The position numbers were made by a program, and so were the translations under genes. 34,041 bases of DNA, taken from positions 1 to 34,041 of the forward strand of contig JAEPKX010000018.1 of assembly GCA_021375695.1 (NCBI GenBank), in the 5' to 3' direction. Source of the DNA: Candidatus Igneacidithiobacillus taupoensis (lineage in GTDB: Bacteria > Pseudomonadota > Gammaproteobacteria > Acidithiobacillales > Acidithiobacillaceae). Each line of letters opens with the position of its first letter. The stretch's first letter is position 1. The notes beneath the pieces were generated by a model. It was not told the DNA's origin. It worked only from the letters and a program-made list of their open reading frames with translations, and ran no database searches. Below, one piece after another: positions 4,252 through 33,476 of this stretch.

Positions 4252-5066
4252 CCCAAGTAGCCTCTGGCCAAGAACCCCTTCGTTACCTGACCGAAGAGCC
4301 CTTCTATCAGCCCGTGGGCAATGAGCTTGGGGTATTCATGGCAGCCTGGGGGAAGCGGTTGCCGGTAATGCTCAAAGGGCCGACGGGGTGTGGCAAGACC
4401 CGGTTTCTGGAACATATGGCCTGGCGCCTGAAGCGTCCCTTGATCACCGTGGCCTGTCATGAGGATCTTACCAGCTCGGACCTGGTTGGCCGCTTTCTGA
4501 TCGAGGGGGAGGAGACTGTCTGGCAGGATGGTCCCCTGACCCGGGCGGTGCGTGAGGGGGCCATCTGCTATCTGGACGAAATCGTGGAAGCGCGTACCGA
4601 CACTACGGTGGTGATTCATCCGCTTACTGATCACCGTCGCCATTTGCCCATCGACAAACTGGGCATGGAGATTGGCGCCCATCCGGACTTTTTGCTGGTG
4701 ATCTCCTATAACCCAGGCTACCAGACGGTTCTGAAAGATCTGAAGCCTTCCACCAAGCAGCGTTTTGTGGGGATGAATTTTCAGTACCCGCCGAGTGCGC
4801 TGGAAAAGCAAATCGTAATGCGGGAGGCTGGCCTGGATGCCGAGCGGGCAGAGAAGCTGGTACAAGCCGCTGCTAAGGCCCGCAACTTGAAGGATCAAGG
4901 ACTGCAGGAAGTCACTTCCACCCGCGCCTTGGTCTATGCCGGAACCCTCATGGCGGCAGGGTTGGAGCCCATGGAGGCGGTGGCGGCAGCCATTATCCAT
5001 CCCCAGACCGACGATCCCGAATTGGCAGCCGCCCTTACGGAGATTTTCCAGACTTTCTTTGGCTGA
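4248..5066 (+). CDS. cbbQ: CbbQ-type MoxR AAA+ ATPase
   Basis: This 272-aa protein has Walker A GPTGCGKT at residues 44-51 and Walker B AICYLDE ending at Asp110-Glu111. It also carries the CbbQ/NirQ/NorQ-specific blocks PLITVAC, LVGRFL, WQDGPLTRAVR, DTTVVIHPLTDHRR and ISYNPGYQ, then STKQRF. Length is normal for CbbQ. CbbQ forms a hexamer with CbbO and acts as a RuBisCO activase, removing inhibitory sugar phosphates in an ATP-dependent way; the closely related NorQ matures nitric oxide reductase. The CbbO-type partner follows directly, but no RuBisCO or nor gene is in the window, so the client is unknown. The CbbQ symbol rests on sequence resemblance rather than context. Confidence 0.88.
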   Translation: MTQVASGQEPLRYLTEEPFYQPVGNELGVFMAAWGKRLPVMLKGPTGCGKTRFLEHMAWRLKRPLITVACHEDLTSSDLVGRFLIEGEETVWQDGPLTRAVREGAICYLDEIVEARTDTTVVIHPLTDHRRHLPIDKLGMEIGAHPDFLLVISYNPGYQTVLKDLKPSTKQRFVGMNFQYPPSALEKQIVMREAGLDAERAEKLVQAAAKARNLKDQGLQEVTSTRALVYAGTLMAAGLEPMEAVAAAIIHPQTDDPELAAALTEIFQTFFG

Positions 5067-5073
5067 GGTGCAT

Positions 5074-7569
5074 GTGTCGGCGGCGACGGAGGAGATTCTC
5101 GAGCATCTGGATGCGGTGAGTTTTGTGGCGGGTCGGGATGCCCGTGCTGCCTTGCCGGCCGTGCTCCCTTTGGGGGAGACGGCAGCTCTGCGTTTTCTGG
5201 AAACCGGCAGGGATCTCTTTTTTTATGATCGAGAGGCGGGAAAAGCTCTTTTCCACGCCACAGCGGACTTGGTCCAGGCGTTTGGGGGACTGGATCCTTG
5301 GCTTGCGCAGGCGCGGATTTTTTTGACCCAACGGGGAACCTTTCGGGCTGCTGTAGGATTTTTTGAACAGGCGGCGACAGTCTGCAAGCAATACGGTCTG
5401 GACGGGGAAAAAATCTGGTTCGAGGAAGGTGCGGCGTGGATTCCCCTCCATGTGGACAGCGCCGCGGCCTATTTTCGGATGCCTGTGGCTCGCCTTTTTG
5501 GGGGGCTGCCTGCCAAAGACTTGCAGGTCCTCCTTGCCCCTGCCCGGGAGTTTGCCAAGGATCGCCTCGGGTTGGCCAGCTATCTGGAAGGAGCGGTCAA
5601 GGTTCGGGCTTTGTGTGGACTTGCTGGGGTAAGCCATTGGGCGGCAAGAGGTCGGGATGTCCTGGCTGCTGGAAGGGTTCGTGGGGAAGCCTGGTTTCGC
5701 TTGGAGAGCGATGAGTCCCGCGCATTTTTGCTGGAGGTTTTGCCTGGATTTCGATTGGGACCCCACAAGCGGCTTTTTGCCCTGCTGCTTCAGGCCTGGA
5801 CGGGTTTATATCTGCCCATGGAGGAAGGCGATTGGAGTGCCGAGGGAGGGCGCAGTTTTCTGGAAACCGATGGTCGCAGCCTCTTTGTCCCAGCGGTCAT
5901 GCCCGATCGGGAAGAGGCGATGCTGGCTTTTTATCATTTGGGAGCGCATCTGGCCTTTGGCAGCTACGAGGAGGCGGCTATCCAATCCCTGTTTCGGGAA
6001 ATTGGTATGGAACATCCGCCTCTGGATGCCGATCAGCGGGTTACCTGGCGTCCTCTCTTTGCTCGCTTTGGCCAGGACCTGCTTCGTTTTCAGCTGATTT
6101 TCGATATTCTCGAGGATCTACGGGTCGATCTGGCCATGGAGCGGGAGATGCCTGGCTATCTTCAGCGCATCCTGGCCGCTGCCGAGCGGTGTGGTCCCCC
6201 TCCAGGAAGCACCGCAGCGGCCTACTGGCAAGAGGCATTGGTACTGACGCGCCAAGCCCAGTCCCACAACTTGCCCCAGGATCTTGCGGTTCTGGCCTCG
6301 CCCACCGCCGGGATCCTGGATGCCTTCCGCTTGGCCATGGCTCGCTACGCGGAAACTTCCCTGCCCCCCCTGCAGTTGGCAGAGCGCGCGGCTGCTTTTT
6401 TGCCCGGACACTCCCCCAATGCCGCTCGTCCGGTCTATCCCCGTCGGCAAAAAGGAGCGGAGGGCGCGGAGATGGATGCAGGAGGGAACCTGGGGGCAGC
6501 AGGACACCAAGAAAAGCCTCGCGAAGCACCACAGGCCGCCGAGGGTAACGATCCGGACCTGGAAATTCCCCCCGAAGATATCCAGGGCACCGGTGGCCGC
6601 GTGGGGGTGGGGATCCCCCTGCCCGCCAAAGTGCACGGCAGTGGGCGCGGTGTCCAGGGTCCGAAAGGGGGTTGGCCTTATCGGGAATGGGATTATCGTC
6701 AGGGCAAATACAAAGAAAACTGGGCGCGGGTACACGAACGCAAACTCCGCGAACGGGATGAGGTCCGGGCGGTGGAGATCGCGGCCCAATACCAGGGCAC
6801 CCTGCAGCGTTTGAAAAAGGCCCTGCAGGCCCAGAAACCGACGCGTATGGCCCCCCTGCGGCGGCAAAAAGAGGGGGAGGAACCCGACCTGGATGCGGCC
6901 GTGCAGTTTGTGGTGGAGCGACGGGCCGGTCAAAGCCCCAAGGCCAATATCTATCGGCAACGGCGACCTCTGCAGCGGGATACGGCCGTATTGCTGCTGG
7001 CCGATCTCTCTACTTCCATCATGGCCGAGGCCGGGGAAACGGGGATCCGGGTGGTAGATCGTCTCCAGGCGGCCATGCTGCTTTTTGGGGAGGCTTTACT
7101 TGAAGTTGGGGATCCGTTTGCCCTCTATGGTTTTGCCAGCAAGTATCACCAGGAAGTCCTGTTGTATCCCATCAAACGTTTTGATGAACCCTTCGATGCC
7201 AGGGCCCGAGCCATCCTGGGAGGATTGAGTGGGCGGCTGGCGACCCGGATGGGAGCGGCCATCCGTCATAGTGTCCGGCAACTCCAAAATAGCCCCGCCC
7301 AACGGCGCCTGCTTTTGCTTCTGTCAGATGGTCGACCGGCTGACTATGATGATGGTGGCGATCCCCGCTACCTCCAGGAGGATACCCGTATGGCGGTACG
7401 TGAGGCCCTGGAGCAGGGGGTGCATTGCTTTTGCATCAGCCTGGACCCGCGGGGCGGTGAGTATTTGCCCTTGGTCTTTGGCAATGGTCATTATCTGGTC
7501 CTACCTCACCTGGATCAACTCCCCCAACGCTTACCGGAGATCTACCTGCGGCTGCGAGGCCAGGGATGA
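5074..7569 (+). CDS. cbbO: CbbO/NorD-type von Willebrand factor A protein, CbbQ partner
   Basis: The protein has about 831 residues. The first ~400 form a helical repeat-like region, followed by a Gly/Pro-rich linker (about 450-545), a charged helical stretch and a C-terminal VWA domain. The VWA domain has a complete MIDAS site: DLSTS (Asp644, Ser646, Ser648), Thr724 in RLATRMG, and Asp752 in LSDGRPAD. CbbO uses this metal site to bind its client (RuBisCO in characterised systems) and recruits the CbbQ hexamer. Start choice is uncertain: GTG at 5074 has GAGGTG upstream with short spacing, while GTG 5068 and TTG 5059 are alternatives. It follows cbbQ within a few bases and overlaps the next gene by 4 bp. 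Confidence 0.88.
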   Translation: MSAATEEILEHLDAVSFVAGRDARAALPAVLPLGETAALRFLETGRDLFFYDREAGKALFHATADLVQAFGGLDPWLAQARIFLTQRGTFRAAVGFFEQAATVCKQYGLDGEKIWFEEGAAWIPLHVDSAAAYFRMPVARLFGGLPAKDLQVLLAPAREFAKDRLGLASYLEGAVKVRALCGLAGVSHWAARGRDVLAAGRVRGEAWFRLESDESRAFLLEVLPGFRLGPHKRLFALLLQAWTGLYLPMEEGDWSAEGGRSFLETDGRSLFVPAVMPDREEAMLAFYHLGAHLAFGSYEEAAIQSLFREIGMEHPPLDADQRVTWRPLFARFGQDLLRFQLIFDILEDLRVDLAMEREMPGYLQRILAAAERCGPPPGSTAAAYWQEALVLTRQAQSHNLPQDLAVLASPTAGILDAFRLAMARYAETSLPPLQLAERAAAFLPGHSPNAARPVYPRRQKGAEGAEMDAGGNLGAAGHQEKPREAPQAAEGNDPDLEIPPEDIQGTGGRVGVGIPLPAKVHGSGRGVQGPKGGWPYREWDYRQGKYKENWARVHERKLRERDEVRAVEIAAQYQGTLQRLKKALQAQKPTRMAPLRRQKEGEEPDLDAAVQFVVERRAGQSPKANIYRQRRPLQRDTAVLLLADLSTSIMAEAGETGIRVVDRLQAAMLLFGEALLEVGDPFALYGFASKYHQEVLLYPIKRFDEPFDARARAILGGLSGRLATRMGAAIRHSVRQLQNSPAQRRLLLLLSDGRPADYDDGGDPRYLQEDTRMAVREALEQGVHCFCISLDPRGGEYLPLVFGNGHYLVLPHLDQLPQRLPEIYLRLRGQG

Positions 7570-25702: not shown

Positions 25703-26104
25703 TTACGCCAGGGAAAATTCCCCGATGCGAAAGTTCTTGAGCAGTTCCTCCTGACGTTGCTGTAGTTCGAGCCAAGCATGATGAAGTGGGCAAGGATGAA
25801 GGTCACTGCACTCCTTTTGTCCCAGTAGGCAGCGTATCCGGTTTTCGCCCTCGGTATTGACCGCCTTAAGGATTTCGTAGGCGCTCATATGCACTGCCTC
25901 TGGTCGAAGAGCAAAGCCGCCACCTTTGCCTTTCAGAGATTCCAGTACGCCTCGCTTGGCTAGGATTCGCAAGACACCTGCAACGCAAGGCTCGGAAACG
26001 TCAACCGCATGGGCTATATCCCGACAAAGAACGGGAACGCCAACTCCTGTATTCATCAAAAATAGTAGACAGCGTAAAGCGCATTCAGAATTTTTGTTGA
26101 TCAT
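25703..26104 (-). CDS. Rrf2-family transcriptional regulator with Fe-S-type cysteines
   Basis: The 133-aa product has the Rrf2 winged helix: ALRCLLFLMN, then VLCRDIAHAVDVSEPCVAGVLRILAKRGVLES in part, then KGGGFALR as the wing. Near residues 90-106 are three cysteines spaced CX6CX5C (CLLGQKECSDLHPC). This is close to the Fe-S ligand arrangement of NsrR and IscR, so it likely senses NO, redox state or Fe-S supply. ATG at 26102-26104 is chosen as the start of the conserved domain. It lies downstream of the hdeD-like gene on the same strand with its own promoter. Confidence 0.88.
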   Translation of the reverse strand: MINKNSECALRCLLFLMNTGVGVPVLCRDIAHAVDVSEPCVAGVLRILAKRGVLESLKGKGGGFALRPEAVHMSAYEILKAVNTEGENRIRCLLGQKECSDLHPCPLHHAWLELQQRQEELLKNFRIGEFSLA

Positions 26105-26120
26105 CACGGTCTTGGAATTC

Positions 26121-26150
26121 GTTATGGTGGTGTGAAATTTTTTGTGACAA
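26121..26150 (-). promoter_or_regulatory. Candidate sigma70 promoter for the Rrf2 gene
   Basis: On the minus strand, TTGTCA (26150-26145, five of six consensus) is followed after 18 bp by CATAAC (26126-26121, four of six). It is placed about 17 bp before the start codon, implying a very short leader. The AT-rich spacer (AAAAAATTTCACA) could hold the regulator's own site. Confidence 0.45.
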
Positions 26151-26209
26151 AGAGGATGACAGCAAATGATACTGCCATCCATGAGAAGGCCCAACGAAAA
26201 CACTGTGGA

Positions 26210-26818
26210 TCAATGAGCCACAGCAGTGGCCGAGGTTTTTCCTTCTTGCTTGAGCATATTGCGCCGCAAGGCCCAACTCATCCCAAACATGGCTGCGGAA
26301 AAAGCTGCAGAAAAACCAATCACAATCCAGCGATAGACGTCAGGGCTCGCTGCAGGCGCCAGGGCAAAGACCATCTGTAAGGCCACCGCAAGGGCCAGAT
26401 AGGCAGAAGACCCAATGATCAGCACCAGCTCTTTGTTGCGTACGTTACGGATGACCCAGATCCCTTCCAGAACGCCAACAATGGCAATCCAGGCAAATAT
26501 GGTAAGCAGGGTGTACAGTTGTGATCCCGTGGTAGTGAGCAGGATCACAGCAATGCCAGCAGCAAAGTCTACCAGGGACTTGATCGCGATTAGGACCCTC
26601 GGACAAGCGCCGGAACCTTGTTCGCTCAAGCGTAGGGCCGAGTAGATACCGTCAAAAAATACATACGCAACAAAAAACCAGGTTAGCAGGGTAAAGGTGG
26701 CACCAAAGACAAGCAAGGCGACCATGGCAAAGGCCAGCGCGGCAATACCACGAATCAGCAGCAACTGCCAGGAAAAAAGACGGAATTGTTCATTGTGCTC
26801 AACGGTAATCCTGTTCAT
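26210..26818 (-). CDS. HdeD-family membrane protein (DUF308)
   Basis: This 202-aa protein has six hydrophobic segments in three pairs, with the HdeD/DUF308 pattern WQLLLIRGIAALAFAMVALL, GIYSALRL and WIAIVGVLEGIWVIRN. HdeD is linked to acid resistance in enterobacteria; the family is widespread and its mechanism is unknown. An acid-stress role would suit an acidophile but is inference. ATG at 26816-26818 has AGGATAGGAGAAACC upstream. A good promoter lies about 50 bp upstream. Confidence 0.88.
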   Translation of the reverse strand: MNRITVEHNEQFRLFSWQLLLIRGIAALAFAMVALLVFGATFTLLTWFFVAYVFFDGIYSALRLSEQGSGACPRVLIAIKSLVDFAAGIAVILLTTTGSQLYTLLTIFAWIAIVGVLEGIWVIRNVRNKELVLIIGSSAYLALAVALQMVFALAPAASPDVYRWIVIGFSAAFSAAMFGMSWALRRNMLKQEGKTSATAVAH

Positions 26819-27055: not shown

Positions 27056-27505
27056 TTACATCGCAGTAGAGGCTAGCAGATGATGAAGCACATAGCCTAC
27101 GGAAACCAGATGGGTGGCAAAGGTGATCAGCAACAATCCACCCACGAGACCAAAGTTTTTCAAGAAATCCCAGAAATGGCTTCTGCCTTTGCTGTCGCCC
27201 GGTTTCCAGAAGTCTGCATATCGCCAAAATTGATGATATAAAATAGCTGTAATCACACAATATACCGCAAGTAAAAGTGCGGCAATACGATCATGCTAGC
27301 CTGAAACGATACAGAGAGGAGTAATTGATTCTACGCAAATAGCAGCGATGAGTAGTGGCGGACCACTGGATTTGGGAAGAAAAGAGGACTCCGCGTGTGC
27401 CAGCGCACCGCGCCAAAATAAAATTTTGTCTAGCGCACTGAAAGGAAAGAGAATCACCAGAAAGATTCGGATTACCAGCGGTATCAGATAGATATTCAGC
27501 CACAT
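27056..27505 (-). pseudogene. doxX: DoxX-family membrane protein gene interrupted by an in-frame TAG
   Basis: Codons from ATG at 27505 encode WLNIYLIPLVIRIFLVILF, SALDKILFW and LLIAAICVESITPLCIVSG, then meet TAG at 27298-27296. The same frame continues HDRIAALLLAVYCVITAILYHQFW (shown in parts: RIAALLLA, AILYHQFW), the next DoxX blocks, and runs to a stop at 27056. The whole reading would be 149 aa, normal for DoxX, with four membrane helices. DoxX proteins interact with quinone/oxidoreductase systems. The stop falls where a Trp before the HDR is plausible (TGG to TAG). The start overlaps the NDH-2 stop by 10 bp, so it is the last gene of the glucoamylase operon. Sequencing error, a real nonsense mutation or readthrough are all possible. 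Confidence 0.75.
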
Positions 27506-28797
27506 TCTTCTTTCCCATTTTCTTTGCTTTTTTCCCGCTTGTGCCCATCTGCAAGATGCAGTGGTCGAATCAATTGTACTGCGTTATTACGACGAAAATA
27601 GTCGCTGAACCAGTCCAGCAAAGTGCGCAGGCGATTTCCAGTACCAATGATGCGATACAGATGCAATAGCAACCAAAGTATCCAGGCAATGGCACCGCGG
27701 CTTACCCACCCGTGAATCTGGCAAACCCCATCCAGTCGTCCCACTACGGCCATACTACCTGGATCGCGATAGGAAAAGGGGGCTGGCATTCCATGCTTTT
27801 GCGCTTGCGCAATGATGAATCTTGCTGCATAGCGACCCGATTGCATGGCAAAGGGTGCCACTTGCGGCCAGAAATCATCTTCCTTGCTCACGGCAAGGTC
27901 ACCGAGCACAAAGACTTCGGGAAAATCAGGCAAACGAAGATAAGGATCTACCTTTATTCTACCCCCCTTTCCACGTTCACCAGGGAGTGATTCCAGCAAT
28001 GGGGGAGCCATCACTCCTGCGGTCCAAACCAGGGTCCGTGCGACAATGGCGGGACCCTGATCACAGTGCACCTGAAAACCATCAAAATCCTGGACGTGGG
28101 TTTGCAAGCGCAGCTCTGCTCCCAACTCCCGGAGTCGGGCTGCAGCATGTTCTTGCAGGGAGGGTGCAAAACCAGGAAGCAGTGCTTCTCCTCCATGTAC
28201 CAAAATGATCTCTGTTTCAGAAAAATGTAGTTCCGGATATTCTCGCGGGAGCAGTTCGCGCAGGGTTTCCAACAAAGCTCCGCAAAATTCCACCCCTGCC
28301 GCTCCCCCACCAGCAATGACAAAGCGCAGCCAGCTTTTTCGCTGCTCAGGATCAGGACAGTTACTGGCGTTTTCCAGGGCCAGAAATATTTTCGATCGCG
28401 CGATCTCGGCCTCTTCCAGTCCCTTGATCTGGAGAGCATGATTGGTAATGGATTCGTTGCCAAAAAAATTGGTGACCGTTCCCAATGCCAACAAGAGGTA
28501 GTCGTAAGGGAGTATTTCGTTGTTCCGTAAACAAACCTTGCGCTGGGAAAGGTCGATCCTTTGCACCTCACCCAGATGAAAACGCCAGTTATTCCCTTGC
28601 CCAAGTTTTCGAAAAGGGGTGGCAATCACTTCCCCCAGCAGCTCACCAGTAGCTACCTGATACAAGAGCGGTTGAAACAAATGATAATTGCGCTGATCCA
28701 CCAGGGTGATCTGCAAATCCTGCCCGCTTAGGGTGTGCAGCGCACTCAGTCCCGCAAAGCCGCCGCCAAGAATCAAGACCCGTTTGGCTTGCGTCAT
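27496..28797 (-). CDS. ndh: Type II NADH dehydrogenase (NDH-2)
   Basis: This 433-aa flavoprotein has an FAD-binding GGGFAGLSALHTLS at residues 11-24, the quinone-site-associated NYHLFQPLLYQVATGEL, a second dinucleotide fold VIAGGGAAGVEFCGALLE for NADH, and VLGDLA near 295. It has a C-terminal hydrophobic stretch (GAIAWILWLLLHLYRI) plus a basic tail for membrane attachment. It oxidises NADH and reduces quinone without proton pumping. Its ATG overlaps the stop of the GMC gene by 4 bp, and the doxX-type gene follows. In this operon it probably accepts electrons from the upstream dehydrogenases via NADH. Enzymes of the sulfide:quinone reductase type look similar, but the motif set favours NDH-2. 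Confidence 0.85.
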   Translation of the reverse strand: MTQAKRVLILGGGFAGLSALHTLSGQDLQITLVDQRNYHLFQPLLYQVATGELLGEVIATPFRKLGQGNNWRFHLGEVQRIDLSQRKVCLRNNEILPYDYLLLALGTVTNFFGNESITNHALQIKGLEEAEIARSKIFLALENASNCPDPEQRKSWLRFVIAGGGAAGVEFCGALLETLRELLPREYPELHFSETEIILVHGGEALLPGFAPSLQEHAAARLRELGAELRLQTHVQDFDGFQVHCDQGPAIVARTLVWTAGVMAPPLLESLPGERGKGGRIKVDPYLRLPDFPEVFVLGDLAVSKEDDFWPQVAPFAMQSGRYAARFIIAQAQKHGMPAPFSYRDPGSMAVVGRLDGVCQIHGWVSRGAIAWILWLLLHLYRIIGTGNRLRTLLDWFSDYFRRNNAVQLIRPLHLADGHKREKSKENGKEECG

Positions 28798-30326
28798 GTG
28801 TCCTCACCAGCTACCGAGCCTTCGGCAAAGCGTTGGCGTAGATGTTCGGCTACCCGCAAGGCGTTGGCCATGATCGTCAGCGAAGGATTCACCGCGCTGA
28901 TGGAAGGCATGAAACTGCCATCTACCACATAGAGATTGTCGAGATCATGGGCCTTGCAAAAGGGATCCAGGACATTTTCGTGGGGATCCTGGCCAAAGCG
29001 ACAGGTGCCCACTTGATGAGCCGTTGCCGAGATATCCATGGGCTGGAAAAATACGGCAAAAAATCCGGCTTGATGCAAAAGGGTTTTCCACTTTTGGCAA
29101 AGCCGGTAGTGGCTTTCTTGATTTTTGGGCCGCCAATGGAGGCGGATACTGCCGTCCGGTTCCAGGGTTACCCGATTCTCCGGTCTTGGCAGGTCTTCGG
29201 TAGTGAGCCACCAATCGGTCGAATGACTGGCCGCCCAGGAGCTGGCGGGGATCGGTAGCGTTGGACGTTCGGCGTGCAGCACGGCGGGCGTTACCTTGCC
29301 CAGGGATTGGATGTGGCCGAGGGGGTACGGATAGGCGGGATCTCCAGAGTCCTCATAAAAGTCGTTGAGGGCCAGCGTCTTTTGGAAAACGGTACGATTT
29401 AGCTTTCCCGGTTTCAGGGCCATACAGGCACTATTGAGATGGGCCATATAATTTCTGCCCACTTGATCACTATGGTTGGCAAGACCGCTAGGATAGCGTT
29501 CGGAGAGGGAGTGGAGGAGCAGCGCTGCACTGTTGATGGCGCCGGCCGCCAAAACGACGACCCGGGCATGGAATTCCCCTTGCGCGGTTTCAACGCTCGT
29601 AACGCGCCGTCCGTCCGGACTGCAATGTAGACGCGTCACCCGGTGTTGGGTCAGTAGTTCCACATTGCCCATGGCCAATGCCGGTCGAACACCACAGATT
29701 TCGGCATCCCCCTTGGCATGGAGAAGGCAGGGGAAACCATCGCAGGTCGGGCAGAGAACGCAGGGACTATTGCCCGGATCCTCTGCCAGCCGATGAATGG
29801 CCAAAGGGAGGGGAAAGGGATGGTACCCCAGATCGCGCAAAGCCTGTTCTACTTCGGCTACTGCTGGTTCGTGGGGGATGGGAGGAAAGGGATATTCGCC
29901 GCGTGGCGGTTCGGTGGGATCTGCCCCCGCTTTCCCATGGGCAAAATACCACTGTTCTGCTTGATCATAAAAACGCGCCAGATCCTGATAGGTAATGGGC
30001 CAGGCACGGGTTGGACCATCTTTATGCTCGCGTTGTTCGAAATCTTTCAGGCGGCGCCGCAATACGGCTGCACCATAGAACTTGGTATTACCACCAACAT
30101 GATAGCCCAGGACCGGTGAAAAGGGTTTGCCTTCGCCATCGCGCCATTGCTCTTGACTATGGTAGCGATGTTCCCGAAAAACAACTTCGGGATCCCAGTT
30201 TCCCCATTCCCGTGGCAAAAAATCGCCCCGTTCCAGGATCAAAATGCGTAAGCCCGTATCGGCGAGGGCCCGCGCCAGGGTCCCACCCCCGGCCCCACTG
30301 CCAATGATGAGGATATCAGCATCCAT
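28794..30326 (-). CDS. GMC-family FAD-dependent oxidoreductase
   Basis: The 510-aa product has the Rossmann motif IIGSGAGGGTLARALAD at residues 6-22, LILERG closing the adenine site, a middle GGNTKFYGAAVLRRR, and a C-terminal GMC_oxred_C domain. The latter has HQVGTCRFG (catalytic His) and SAVNPSLTIMANALRVAEHL in part (second catalytic residue Asn). No signal peptide or cytochrome-binding motif is visible, so it is cytosolic or membrane-associated. Similar bacterial GMC enzymes oxidise sugars, sugar acids or alcohols; gluconate or glucose is suggested by the adjacent genes but not proven. It starts three bases from the stop of the dehydrogenase gene upstream. Confidence 0.85.
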   Translation of the reverse strand: MDADILIIGSGAGGGTLARALADTGLRILILERGDFLPREWGNWDPEVVFREHRYHSQEQWRDGEGKPFSPVLGYHVGGNTKFYGAAVLRRRLKDFEQREHKDGPTRAWPITYQDLARFYDQAEQWYFAHGKAGADPTEPPRGEYPFPPIPHEPAVAEVEQALRDLGYHPFPLPLAIHRLAEDPGNSPCVLCPTCDGFPCLLHAKGDAEICGVRPALAMGNVELLTQHRVTRLHCSPDGRRVTSVETAQGEFHARVVVLAAGAINSAALLLHSLSERYPSGLANHSDQVGRNYMAHLNSACMALKPGKLNRTVFQKTLALNDFYEDSGDPAYPYPLGHIQSLGKVTPAVLHAERPTLPIPASSWAASHSTDWWLTTEDLPRPENRVTLEPDGSIRLHWRPKNQESHYRLCQKWKTLLHQAGFFAVFFQPMDISATAHQVGTCRFGQDPHENVLDPFCKAHDLDNLYVVDGSFMPSISAVNPSLTIMANALRVAEHLRQRFAEGSVAGEDT

Positions 30327-30328
30327 CC

Positions 30329-31114
30329 TCAGCCCCCATGACGAAAGTCAGGATAAATGAGCATGCCTCCATCCACGGCCAGGGTCGTACCGGTGATATA
30401 ACTGGCCAGATCACTGGCAAGAAAGGCCACCACCTGCGCAACCTCTTCGGGTTTGCCCAGTCGTCCCATGGAGATCTTGCGATCCAGATCTTGCAACGCT
30501 TGTGGGTCACTCCAGACATTTTGGTTGATAGGCGTTTGAATGGCTCCTGGGGCAATGGCTACCACCCGAATACCGCGATTGGCGGTCTCTTGGGCAAGGG
30601 TCTTGGTAAACATGGATAGACCTGCCTTGGCGCTGGTATAAGCGCTGAACCCTTCCCAGGGGATAAACTCATGGACCGAGGTCACATTGACAATCACCCC
30701 GCGGCGGTGTTTTTCCATGAGGGGAATGGCCGATCGGGCACAATAATAGGGACCCAACAGGTCCACGGCGATGACTTTTTCCCAGAGCTTGGGATCGTCC
30801 TTACCCACCTCGGCCCGCGGTCCATCCATTCCCGCATTATTGACCAGAATATCCAGCCCTCCCCATTGCTTTTCGACTCCCCCAACCAGCTTGACAACCG
30901 CCCCTGGGTCAGCGATGTCTGCAGAAAAAGCCGCGGCAACCCCGCCGGCTTGTTGAATCTCCTGGACCACCCGATGGGCGCCATCCTGGTCTTTGCCATA
31001 ATGTACCGCTACCTTGGCCCCGGCTTGGGCGAGGGTTTTGGCCATGGCCTGCCCCAAGCCACCACTGGCGCCGGTTACCAAGGCCACCCGATCCTGCAAG
31101 TCAATCGTGATCAT
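30329..31114 (-). CDS. Short-chain dehydrogenase, glucose 1-dehydrogenase-like
   Basis: This 261-aa classical SDR has TGASGGLG (residues 15-22) for the cofactor, NNAG, the catalytic Ser in NVTSVHEFIPWEG and YTSAK with Tyr and Lys. The sequence VHEFIPWEGF between Ser and Tyr is characteristic of Bacillus-type glucose 1-dehydrogenases, which convert beta-D-glucose to D-glucono-1,5-lactone with NAD(P)+. ATG at 31112-31114 has GGAG seven bases upstream, inside the end of the glucoamylase gene, which overlaps by 14 bp. Confidence 0.85.
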   Translation of the reverse strand: MITIDLQDRVALVTGASGGLGQAMAKTLAQAGAKVAVHYGKDQDGAHRVVQEIQQAGGVAAAFSADIADPGAVVKLVGGVEKQWGGLDILVNNAGMDGPRAEVGKDDPKLWEKVIAVDLLGPYYCARSAIPLMEKHRRGVIVNVTSVHEFIPWEGFSAYTSAKAGLSMFTKTLAQETANRGIRVVAIAPGAIQTPINQNVWSDPQALQDLDRKISMGRLGKPEEVAQVVAFLASDLASYITGTTLAVDGGMLIYPDFRHGG

Positions 31115-33476
31115 TGCTTTTCTCCATAATCTCTACCTGGAAATCTTCTCCCATCCAGCGCTGCTCCCGTTGCCAGAACAGGGTAAAGGAGATTCGAGTG
31201 CCTGCGGGCAGCTTCTGGGTTGGCAGGCTTGCCACATGGCCCAGCTCCCAGTCCTCTGAAGGGGTATCCTGGACCTCTTGCCAATCGTTGATCCCCCAAT
31301 GCACCACAAAAGGTTCTGTCAGCAGGATTTTCAATTCCTGGCCCTGGATCAGGGTCCGCGGGCGTTGCCGCAGACGCCATAGGCGATACGACAACTTGGG
31401 ACGCTGCCCCTGGTAGCGAGCCCAGGTGGAAGCAGGACGATCGATGGGCTCCTGGGCAAGAGCGCTGTGGCAGAGTTTCAGGAATTCGCCGTGCGCCCAG
31501 ACGAGGGGCATGGCCGAGCCACTGGGTTTTCCCGGAAAGAGACCGAGCTTGGGGATGGGCTCCGAATCCCAGACCTGTTCGGGTAGGAGCCCACCTTTCC
31601 CCGTCATGGTTGCCATGGCTTGCAAATAGCTTCGCGGGTCTTCTCCCAAGGCCAGGGCATAATGGCCGCGCTCCCCCACCAGCAAGGGCCAGCCGCGACC
31701 GATCCCTGTGCCATCAAAGGGACTGCCATCCCGCTTTTCCCCATAGCCATCGCCATTATATCGATGCCACACCGGGCCACTGGGGGTGTCGGTCTTGAGC
31801 AGGGCATCCATGACCTTGACTGCGTCCACGATCCGGGGATCATCAGCGCGGCGCAGTCCATAGCGCACCAACTGCAAGAAGTCGGTAGAAATTTGCTCGT
31901 TGGCCGGCAAGTGGGGGTCGTGGGCCCGGTTTTTGATCATCACCCATTGGTCTTGCGCACCGTCCTGAATCAGAACCTCTTCTGGGGCTACGCGCAGGTA
32001 ATAGCCAGTTACGCCCAGTTGCTGGGCGAGCTCCGTATCCCGCACAAAGGTCCAATCTTCCAGTCGGGCATTCCAGTAGTCAGCTACCAACAGGGCGCAC
32101 TCCGCTGCTTTGCCACCGAGGATTTCGGCCCCCTCCACCAACGCTGCAATGGCCACCGCCAGGGTAAAAGTATTGACGCCAGCATCTTCTTCCCAGCGGT
32201 CTTGGCCAGTTACGGGCCCCTCCCGCAAAATAAAGCCCAAGGCCCTGGTGACCATATCCTCTATGGCAATTCCTCCCAGCGCCTTGTGTGCGCGAAGCAT
32301 GGCCGCCAATAACACCGGAAAGGCTGCCTCATCGAGTTGAATCCCCTGCCAGAAGGGTTTCCCCCCCAACCATTGGTTTTGCAACCAGTGTCCATCGGCT
32401 TGTTGCGTGCTGATCAAATAACAGAGGACTTGTCGCGCCTCTTGGACCATACCTGCGGCAAGTGCTGCGCCAGCGCTTTCCACCAGATCCCGGGACCAGA
32501 CCAGATGGTAGCCCCCCCGGCTGTTACTGCTCTCGCCCCAGGGTACCGAAAGACTGGCAACAATTGCGCCGGGAAAGGTCTTATCGGAATGGATCTTGAG
32601 GACGTTCTTGGAGCGCTGGTAGAGATCCTGAACGGGTTGCGAGAATTTCCTGGCAAAGGCTGCCGGGCGCTGGTGCGTCTCGTGCCAGTGCAACCAGTCC
32701 GTACGATAATTTTCGGCAATTTCCGGGAATCCCTGACAGAGGCTTGCCCAGCCATTGGTTGCCGCCGCTTCTTTGCTGGTACCCAAGCCTAGTGCCAGGG
32801 TCCCTTGGGGAGGAATGGCGCCGCCCAGGGCCACTTCGCCGGGTCCAGCCTGTTGGTATTCCCACGTCATTCGACCATGGCGAGAAAAATCCTGCCACAG
32901 ATCGCTGGCCCCGATTTCGCCTACACTCCGTTGCCCAAAGGCAGGCTTGCCGTCTGGATCGCGACAGAGAAGCGCCAGACCAAAGGGGCCTTGCTCTGCC
33001 CACAACAGCTCGCGTCCTTCCCAGCTGCCCACATATCCTTGATTGGCAGTGGGATCACCGCCCAAGCGAGCGGCACAGAGCACATAGACCTGTAATTCGG
33101 ATGCAGCATCCAACTGGTAATCCACCAGCATTACATCCCGTAGTGGGTCGATCACTACTAGGAAAGAGAAGGTAAAACGATCGTGACGATGTTCCATTTG
33201 GGGTAAGGGCACGCGCGGGTCGGCCAAGCTCTGGGTCCAGTCAGAAAAATTTTTGAGTTCTAGCCAAAAACCTTTGCCATCGCCTATCAAAAAACCCAAG
33301 TCCCGAATGGCCGGGATATCAATGCGGGGATAAAAAACTTCGGTAACAATCCCTTTGCCCAGGGTGAACCACACGCGACTCGGTCCAAGCGCCGTACCGA
33401 CCAGACTCTTTTGCGCCGTGGCCCAGGTGGGATGAGGAGATGTTGCCTTGGGGGCCCAATGATTTTTAGCATTCAT
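31101..33476 (-). CDS. GH15 glucoamylase (glucan 1,4-alpha-glucosidase), bacterial type
   Basis: This 791-aa protein has an N-terminal beta-sandwich domain (about 20-270: VWFTLGKGIVTEVFYPRID in part, LVVIDP). It is followed by a GH15 (alpha/alpha)6 barrel with GGYHLVWSRDLVESAG (about 310-325), DGHWLQNQW with IQLDEAAF, RWEEDAG with the likely acid at Glu429 or 430, and LVWAHGEFLKL with the likely base Glu664. A C-terminal beta extension ends the protein. GH15 enzymes release beta-D-glucose from alpha-glucan non-reducing ends. There is no signal peptide, so the substrate should be an internal glycogen-like polymer or imported dextrin. ATG at 33474-33476 has AAGGA upstream. It leads the operon running to the doxX gene. 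Confidence 0.9.
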   Translation of the reverse strand: MNAKNHWAPKATSPHPTWATAQKSLVGTALGPSRVWFTLGKGIVTEVFYPRIDIPAIRDLGFLIGDGKGFWLELKNFSDWTQSLADPRVPLPQMEHRHDRFTFSFLVVIDPLRDVMLVDYQLDAASELQVYVLCAARLGGDPTANQGYVGSWEGRELLWAEQGPFGLALLCRDPDGKPAFGQRSVGEIGASDLWQDFSRHGRMTWEYQQAGPGEVALGGAIPPQGTLALGLGTSKEAAATNGWASLCQGFPEIAENYRTDWLHWHETHQRPAAFARKFSQPVQDLYQRSKNVLKIHSDKTFPGAIVASLSVPWGESSNSRGGYHLVWSRDLVESAGAALAAGMVQEARQVLCYLISTQQADGHWLQNQWLGGKPFWQGIQLDEAAFPVLLAAMLRAHKALGGIAIEDMVTRALGFILREGPVTGQDRWEEDAGVNTFTLAVAIAALVEGAEILGGKAAECALLVADYWNARLEDWTFVRDTELAQQLGVTGYYLRVAPEEVLIQDGAQDQWVMIKNRAHDPHLPANEQISTDFLQLVRYGLRRADDPRIVDAVKVMDALLKTDTPSGPVWHRYNGDGYGEKRDGSPFDGTGIGRGWPLLVGERGHYALALGEDPRSYLQAMATMTGKGGLLPEQVWDSEPIPKLGLFPGKPSGSAMPLVWAHGEFLKLCHSALAQEPIDRPASTWARYQGQRPKLSYRLWRLRQRPRTLIQGQELKILLTEPFVVHWGINDWQEVQDTPSEDWELGHVASLPTQKLPAGTRISFTLFWQREQRWMGEDFQVEIMEKSNDHD

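Follow-up and report, generated by a model that had tools for sequence, protein, structure and literature searches.

In the genome of Candidatus Igneacidithiobacillus taupoensis, which belongs to a group of obligate chemolithoautotrophs, four genes form an operon encoding a GH15 glucoamylase/glucodextranase-like enzyme (GA), a glucose 1-dehydrogenase-like SDR, a GMC flavoprotein, and an NDH-2-like NADH:quinone oxidoreductase. The gene set looks made for the release of glucose from a glucan and its oxidation without prior phosphorylation, and the best reading of the sequences is a cytosolic unit that would take glucan to glucose and on to gluconolactone (probability about 0.45). The window, i.e., the whole 34,041-nucleotide stretch of DNA that was analyzed, carries these genes head to tail on its minus strand, with GA at 31101 to 33476, SDR at 30329 to 31114, GMC at 28794 to 30326, and NDH-2 at 27496 to 28797. 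GA and SDR overlap by 14 bp, SDR and GMC are separated by 2 bp, and GMC and NDH-2 overlap by 4 bp. These are the spacings given in the original prediction of a contiguous five-gene operon, but the fifth gene, encoding a DoxX-family membrane protein (27056 to 27505, minus strand; 10 bp of overlap with NDH-2 from its start at 27505), is interrupted by an in-frame TAG and is not intact. The Pfam domains of the four products are Glucodextran_N and GH15 (GA), adh_short (SDR), GMC N and C (GMC), and Pyr_redox_2 (NDH-2). The genes are presumably co-transcribed. The host genome (G000) has a size of 1.73 Mb and is 98.16% complete; about 2% may be missing.

GA is a 791-residue protein whose GH15 domain has both Glu430 and Glu633, predicted to be catalytic residues and which we take to be the GH15 catalytic pair. 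Of 29 distinct long GA stretches, 28 retain both, and the remaining one ends before the second Glu. Glucodextranase (1ug9) and bacterial glucoamylase (1lf6) share with GA the domain N, the GH15 catalytic domain, and both Glu positions; no signal peptide, however, is seen in GA. The whole glucan 1,4-alpha-glucosidase profile TIGR01535 is covered by GA at a score below the cutoff (580.4 versus 741.9 bits). The N-terminus is not hydrophobic (best 12-residue Kyte-Doolittle mean of 0.72 in the first 45 residues) and the open frame continues for just 12 codons upstream of the ATG (803 versus 791), which makes a hidden signal peptide improbable and upholds the earlier placement of the enzyme in the cytosol. 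A full-length close match to GA is found in 21 of the 31 searched genomes of the order Acidithiobacillales. In G007, G008, G013, G014, G027, and G028, the GA copy at the GMC locus or beside SDR is fragmented or has lost most of its sequence, and as some of these genomes are many-contig assemblies, assembly errors are possible. SDR is split too in G028, which is of the same genus as the host. Full-length GA genes are nevertheless present elsewhere in G007, beside SDR (L155), and in G008, beside an SDR piece (L156), and GA remnants with the middle deleted adjoin SDR in G007 and G013 (loci including L047 and L157). Three genomes also encode a second GH15 protein that is 42 to 43% identical (G007:C1:2214261-2216249, G012:C14:6141-8129, and G014:C4:47730-49796).

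The solved structures closest to the 261-residue SDR are Bacillus glucose 1-dehydrogenases, and its residues match those of the Bacillus enzyme. The catalytic triad of glucose 1-dehydrogenase is given as Ser145, Tyr158, and Lys162 (PMC5486021), corresponding to Ser146, Tyr159, and Lys163 of SDR. This triad is not specific to glucose 1-dehydrogenase, as other SDRs share Ser-Tyr-Lys. Compared with the Bacillus structures (PDB 1rwb, 1gee, and 3aus), the equivalents of His147 and Asn196 are also conserved, as His148 and Asn197, but Glu96 is replaced by Asp97; His147, Asn196, and Glu96 have functional roles in the Bacillus enzyme. The complete Ser/His/Tyr/Lys/Asn set occurs in all 30 distinct homologues of at least 60% identity, in 17 of 28 at 35 to 60%, and in none of the six SDR paralogues of the host genome. 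SDR scores 232.7 against a cutoff of 215 for the broad "glucose 1-dehydrogenase" family PRK07231 and 235 against 222 for a FabG subfamily, but it lies under the cutoff of the specific NCBIfam glucose-1-dehydrogenase family PRK08936 (264.7 versus 420 bits).

The 510-residue GMC flavoprotein contains His437 and Asn480 as well as a cysteine motif, Cys189-x2-Cys192-x2-Cys195-x4-Cys200, that may form an Fe-S site. Its predicted model (pLDDT 92.1) was compared with solved structures by VIA-align. The best match was fructose dehydrogenase (Z 45.0, rmsd 2.9, 480 residues aligned), followed by FAD glucose dehydrogenase (FAD-GDH; Z 38.7, rmsd 2.7, 478 aligned), with choline and pyranose oxidases lower at Z about 33. 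The modeled fold is thus nearest to those of FAD/Fe-S sugar dehydrogenases, a result that supports the original interpretation. In FAD-GDH, Cys212, Cys218, and Cys222 are described as ligands of a [3Fe-4S] cluster and His476 and Asn519 as the probable catalytic pair (PMC6719666). One alignment places these three ligands on Cys189, Cys195, and Cys200 of GMC, while a profile alignment does so for the last only. Among 38 sequences that were picked by hand, His437 and Asn480 are invariant (38/38) and all four cysteines are kept in 34. GMC has the modeled catalytic-subunit fold and the His/Asn pair of a three-subunit FAD sugar dehydrogenase, both shared with the alpha subunit of the FAD glucose dehydrogenase from Burkholderia cepacia and the large subunit of the fructose dehydrogenase from Gluconobacter, and its cysteine cluster lies in the same region as theirs. 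The differences are an additional Cys192, Val190 at the position of FAD-GDH Cys213 in the alignment that places all three ligands, and, unlike in either known system, a locus that has no hitchhiker or multiheme cytochrome gene. At this locus, the neighbors of GMC are SDR and NDH-2, and genes for a small subunit and a cytochrome c subunit are not beside it.

The 433-residue NDH-2-like protein scores 23.1 bits for the NDH2_C Pfam domain, under the cutoff of 27.7, and the closest protein of solved structure is an NDH-2, to which it aligns over residues 5 to 401. Judging from its family, the protein could accept NADH, which is in keeping with the earlier suggestion that electrons from NADH enter respiration through it. 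The proposed contribution of DoxX did not hold up in the host. The in-frame TAG at 27298-27296 (minus strand) ends the protein after 69 codons, at a position that is Trp and Leu in the relatives L052 and L129, and may reflect either a pseudogene or a sequencing error. The half upstream of the stop scores just below the Pfam DoxX cutoff (22.5 versus 23.6 bits). With this stop, a DoxX that acts as a working quinone partner in the host was rejected. The link between DoxX and GMC may nevertheless be real elsewhere, since L052 has the query DoxX directly after GMC, L129 has a 55% homologue adjoining GMC in divergent orientation, and a DoxX cluster is near GMC in four cyanobacterial loci (one confirmed by Pfam) among the best 80 of 585 GMC-encoding stretches discussed below. 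Nine of the 31 genomes contain a DoxX match at E 1e-6 or better, but identities of at least 60% are confined to the host and G029 (the query source).

Within the Acidithiobacillales, GMC orthologues are present in 25 of the 31 searched genomes, host included. SDR lies beside GMC in 21 of the 24 other GMC-bearing genomes (G008 being counted from L036); the exceptions are contig ends in G004 and G020, and G029 of the sister family, where SDR is absent. Because this adjacency recurs, and because the set recurs outside the order, the gene order is more than chance. Of the 24 other GMC-bearing genomes, 23 have an MFS transporter gene, which lies behind GMC wherever the fetched locus extends far enough, except in G029, whereas the host genome was searched for this gene without a match. 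In 10 of the 24, NDH-2 is no more than 1.5 kb from GMC, and the MFS gene always separates the two; the host window differs in that NDH-2 is directly behind GMC. The usual set is GA-SDR-GMC-MFS, and NDH-2 and DoxX, which the original prediction counted in the operon, are better described as variable additions. GA and SDR form the most persistent pair. They occur without an intact GMC beside them in G006, in G018, and at a further locus in G007; in G019 a GMC remnant accompanies them. This ties SDR to GA and strengthens the original pairing of a glucose-dehydrogenase-like SDR with a cytosolic glucan-hydrolase-like enzyme. A fusion of SDR and GMC, suggested by 767-aa ORFs in L042, L047, and L056, was rejected; the extra N-terminus aligns unlike SDR, and tblastn places SDR in another frame.

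Outside the order, GMC homologues were collected from a scan of genome contigs, and the best 80 of 585 GMC-encoding stretches were considered. Among these 80, the order GA-SDR-GMC-MFS is found in Sulfuriferula multivorans (L064) and in L062, and in a Gallionellaceae MAG (L063) the contig ends after GA-SDR-GMC. The order is rearranged to GA-GMC-MFS-SDR in L065 and L066, L060 has SDR-GMC-MFS with no GA in the 10 kb upstream, L073 has GMC-GA, and GA and GMC are divergent in L124. Distant GMC homologues are also near glucan hydrolases. Of 69 distant loci (L067 to L136 without L112, drawn from the same 80), 27 have a glucan- or glucosidase-type hydrolase within 6 kb of GMC, 28 if L124 is included, and 41 have none, with five glycoside-hydrolase clusters counted. 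In 2-kb bins outward from GMC, with similar amounts of flank in each, the hydrolase matches number 22, 5, 6, 0, and 0, counts that serve as an internal control rather than an independent test, as the clusters were chosen after the neighborhoods had been viewed. Pfam assigned 34 of these hydrolases near distant GMC genes to MGH1-like (22), GH63 (20), GH15 (8), debranching enzyme (3), and alpha-amylase (3) families, in tallies that overlap. The GMC dehydrogenase family is thereby placed near glucan hydrolases in cyanobacteria, Acidobacteria, Planctomycetes, and others within the best 80 of 585, and its redox partner may differ from the cytochrome subunits known so far.

The wider genomes only partly support a pathway from alpha-glucan to respiration. 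Glycogen synthesis, which the original prediction asked to be looked for, is represented by the glycogen synthase GlgA in all 31 searched genomes. The accompanying claim that glucose bypasses phosphorylation fared less well. The classical glucokinase PF02685 is absent from all 31 genomes, but a ROK kinase is present in 30, host included, so phosphorylation need not be bypassed and an obligatory bypass was rejected. The host ROK protein falls below the ROK-glucokinase cutoff (166.5 versus 260.35), and free glucose in the host may be either phosphorylated by this protein or oxidized by SDR. The search for the usual enzymes of gluconate use turned out negative for the host at 98.16% completeness. 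GntK (TIGR01313) occurs in two of the 31 genomes, both of the sister family, FGGY kinase (PF00370) occurs in 19, and neither was found in the host. Entry through a classical Entner-Doudoroff pathway was rejected, as Edd is above the cutoff in 0 of 31 genomes; the matches under the cutoff are presumably IlvD-like. Gluconate would therefore be without a known outlet in the host, in which GntK, FGGY kinase, and Edd above the cutoff were not found. FGGY kinase is present in five of seven same-genus relatives, which may therefore have a gluconokinase, and 6-phosphogluconate dehydrogenase is found in all 31 genomes. A second Edd/IlvD-like dehydratase, scoring about 250 bits to Edd and under the cutoff, was observed in G007 (C1:1447024-1448496), with counterparts in G003, G004, G008, G013, and G025 and pieces in G021, but not in the host. 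In L141, a 472-aa ORF at 71-1489 overlaps the start of the ROK kinase ORF; it has no NCBIfam match and may be GH57-like.

In the mechanism that we propose, the GH15 enzyme would cut free glucose off an alpha-glucan, for which the glycogen of the cell itself is the likeliest candidate, and SDR would oxidize this glucose to gluconolactone with NAD(P)+. GMC would carry out a second oxidation of a sugar or sugar acid, with electrons passing from FAD to a Cys-ligated Fe-S cluster and towards the respiratory chain. NDH-2 could return electrons from NADH to quinone, and in relatives the MFS protein of the operon would move a sugar or sugar acid across the membrane. The role of GMC, its Fe-S cluster, its electron path, and its electron acceptor are putative, and we likewise infer the substrates, the direction, the role of the transporter, and the fate of gluconate. 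Such a unit would offer chemolithoautotrophs a way to obtain electrons from a glucan store once their donor is exhausted. An extended form of the proposal is that Acidithiobacillales oxidize glycogen incompletely, its glucose being oxidized in the cytosol by an NAD(P)-dependent SDR and by GMC, acting as a soluble Fe-S enzyme that supplies respiration with electrons in the absence of the usual cytochrome subunit. The sugar acid would then leave the cell unmetabolized through the MFS protein, so that an obligate autotroph would use its carbon store for electrons only; this is a speculative and rather unlikely scenario.

The same genes can be read in other ways. The presence of a ROK kinase in 30 of 31 genomes and of 6-phosphogluconate dehydrogenase in every one agrees with a scheme in which the ROK kinase phosphorylates most of the glucose released by GA for use in the pentose phosphate pathway, leaving SDR as an overflow valve and NDH-2 and DoxX as passengers. 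NDH-2 is near GMC in just 10 of the 24 GMC-bearing relatives, always with MFS between, as would be expected of a passenger. We consider this scheme rather unlikely given the sub-cutoff score of the ROK protein, the absence of the PF02685 glucokinase from the 31 genomes, and the adjacency of GA and SDR even without GMC. That last observation also weighs against sugar remodeling, an unlikely alternative in which GMC makes a keto-sugar, SDR reduces it to an epimer, and GA supplies the sugar. Remodeling would account for the repeated co-occurrence of GMC and an SDR in distant bacteria (among the best 80 of 585), for the FabG subfamily score of SDR, which points to a reductase family, and for the weaker matches of the GMC model to pyranose 2-oxidases and C-glycoside oxidases. 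The glucose-dehydrogenase residue set, however, is kept in SDR and in 17 of 28 homologues at 35 to 60% identity, and the modeled GMC fold is closest to fructose and glucose dehydrogenases.

If the MFS protein were an importer, the operon could instead serve mixotrophic use of outside sugars, and the occurrence of the transporter in 23 of the 31 genomes, at its usual place behind GMC where the fetched loci reach (G029 excepted), fits this idea. It is nonetheless improbable, as the transporter was not found in the host genome, GA has no secretion signal, and the MFS protein matches a single named transporter, with a score far below the cutoff (24.3 versus 374.85). The cytosolic glucan-to-gluconolactone unit is the reading that we prefer.

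The nearest published case that we found for the preferred reading is a shunt from glycogen through glucose to gluconate in obligate methanotrophs (PMC8062543). Both involve an SDR-type NAD(P) glucose dehydrogenase acting on glycogen-derived glucose in bacteria that cannot grow on sugar. In the methanotroph shunt, a gluconokinase is described as taking the product on, whereas GntK and FGGY kinase were not found in the host; the host operon also holds GMC and the GH15 enzyme, unlike the shunt as it is described (PMC8062543). The differences thus lie in the lack of a detected gluconokinase in the host, in GMC as a partner, and in the transporter that the relatives have in the operon. The original description of the route as unusual in an obligate autotroph is weakened, since the shunt is reported in obligate methanotrophs (PMC8062543). 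Gluconate formation has already been suggested for biofilm cells of A. ferrooxidans, for which the putative glucose dehydrogenases AFE_0748 and AFE_1857 are reported (PMC6450195). No published description of the gene cluster was found among the titles and abstract openings of the papers that the literature searches listed.

Scans for regulatory elements gave 5 promoters, against 5.2 expected, and 19 terminator-like sites, against 10.7 expected (standard deviation 4.2), many of the latter within genes. The Rfam search returned a tRNA as its sole match. About 240 bp past the operon and on the same strand (25703-26818, minus), the window encodes a regulator of the Rrf2 family and a protein of 202 aa that has no Pfam match and is probably HdeD-like. 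In L152 and L153, homologues of this protein (52%) are located some 4 kb away from GA-SDR. On the plus strand, at 4936-7569, an 877-aa ORF with no Pfam match is directly followed by a histone-deacetylase-family gene and an aldo/keto reductase gene.
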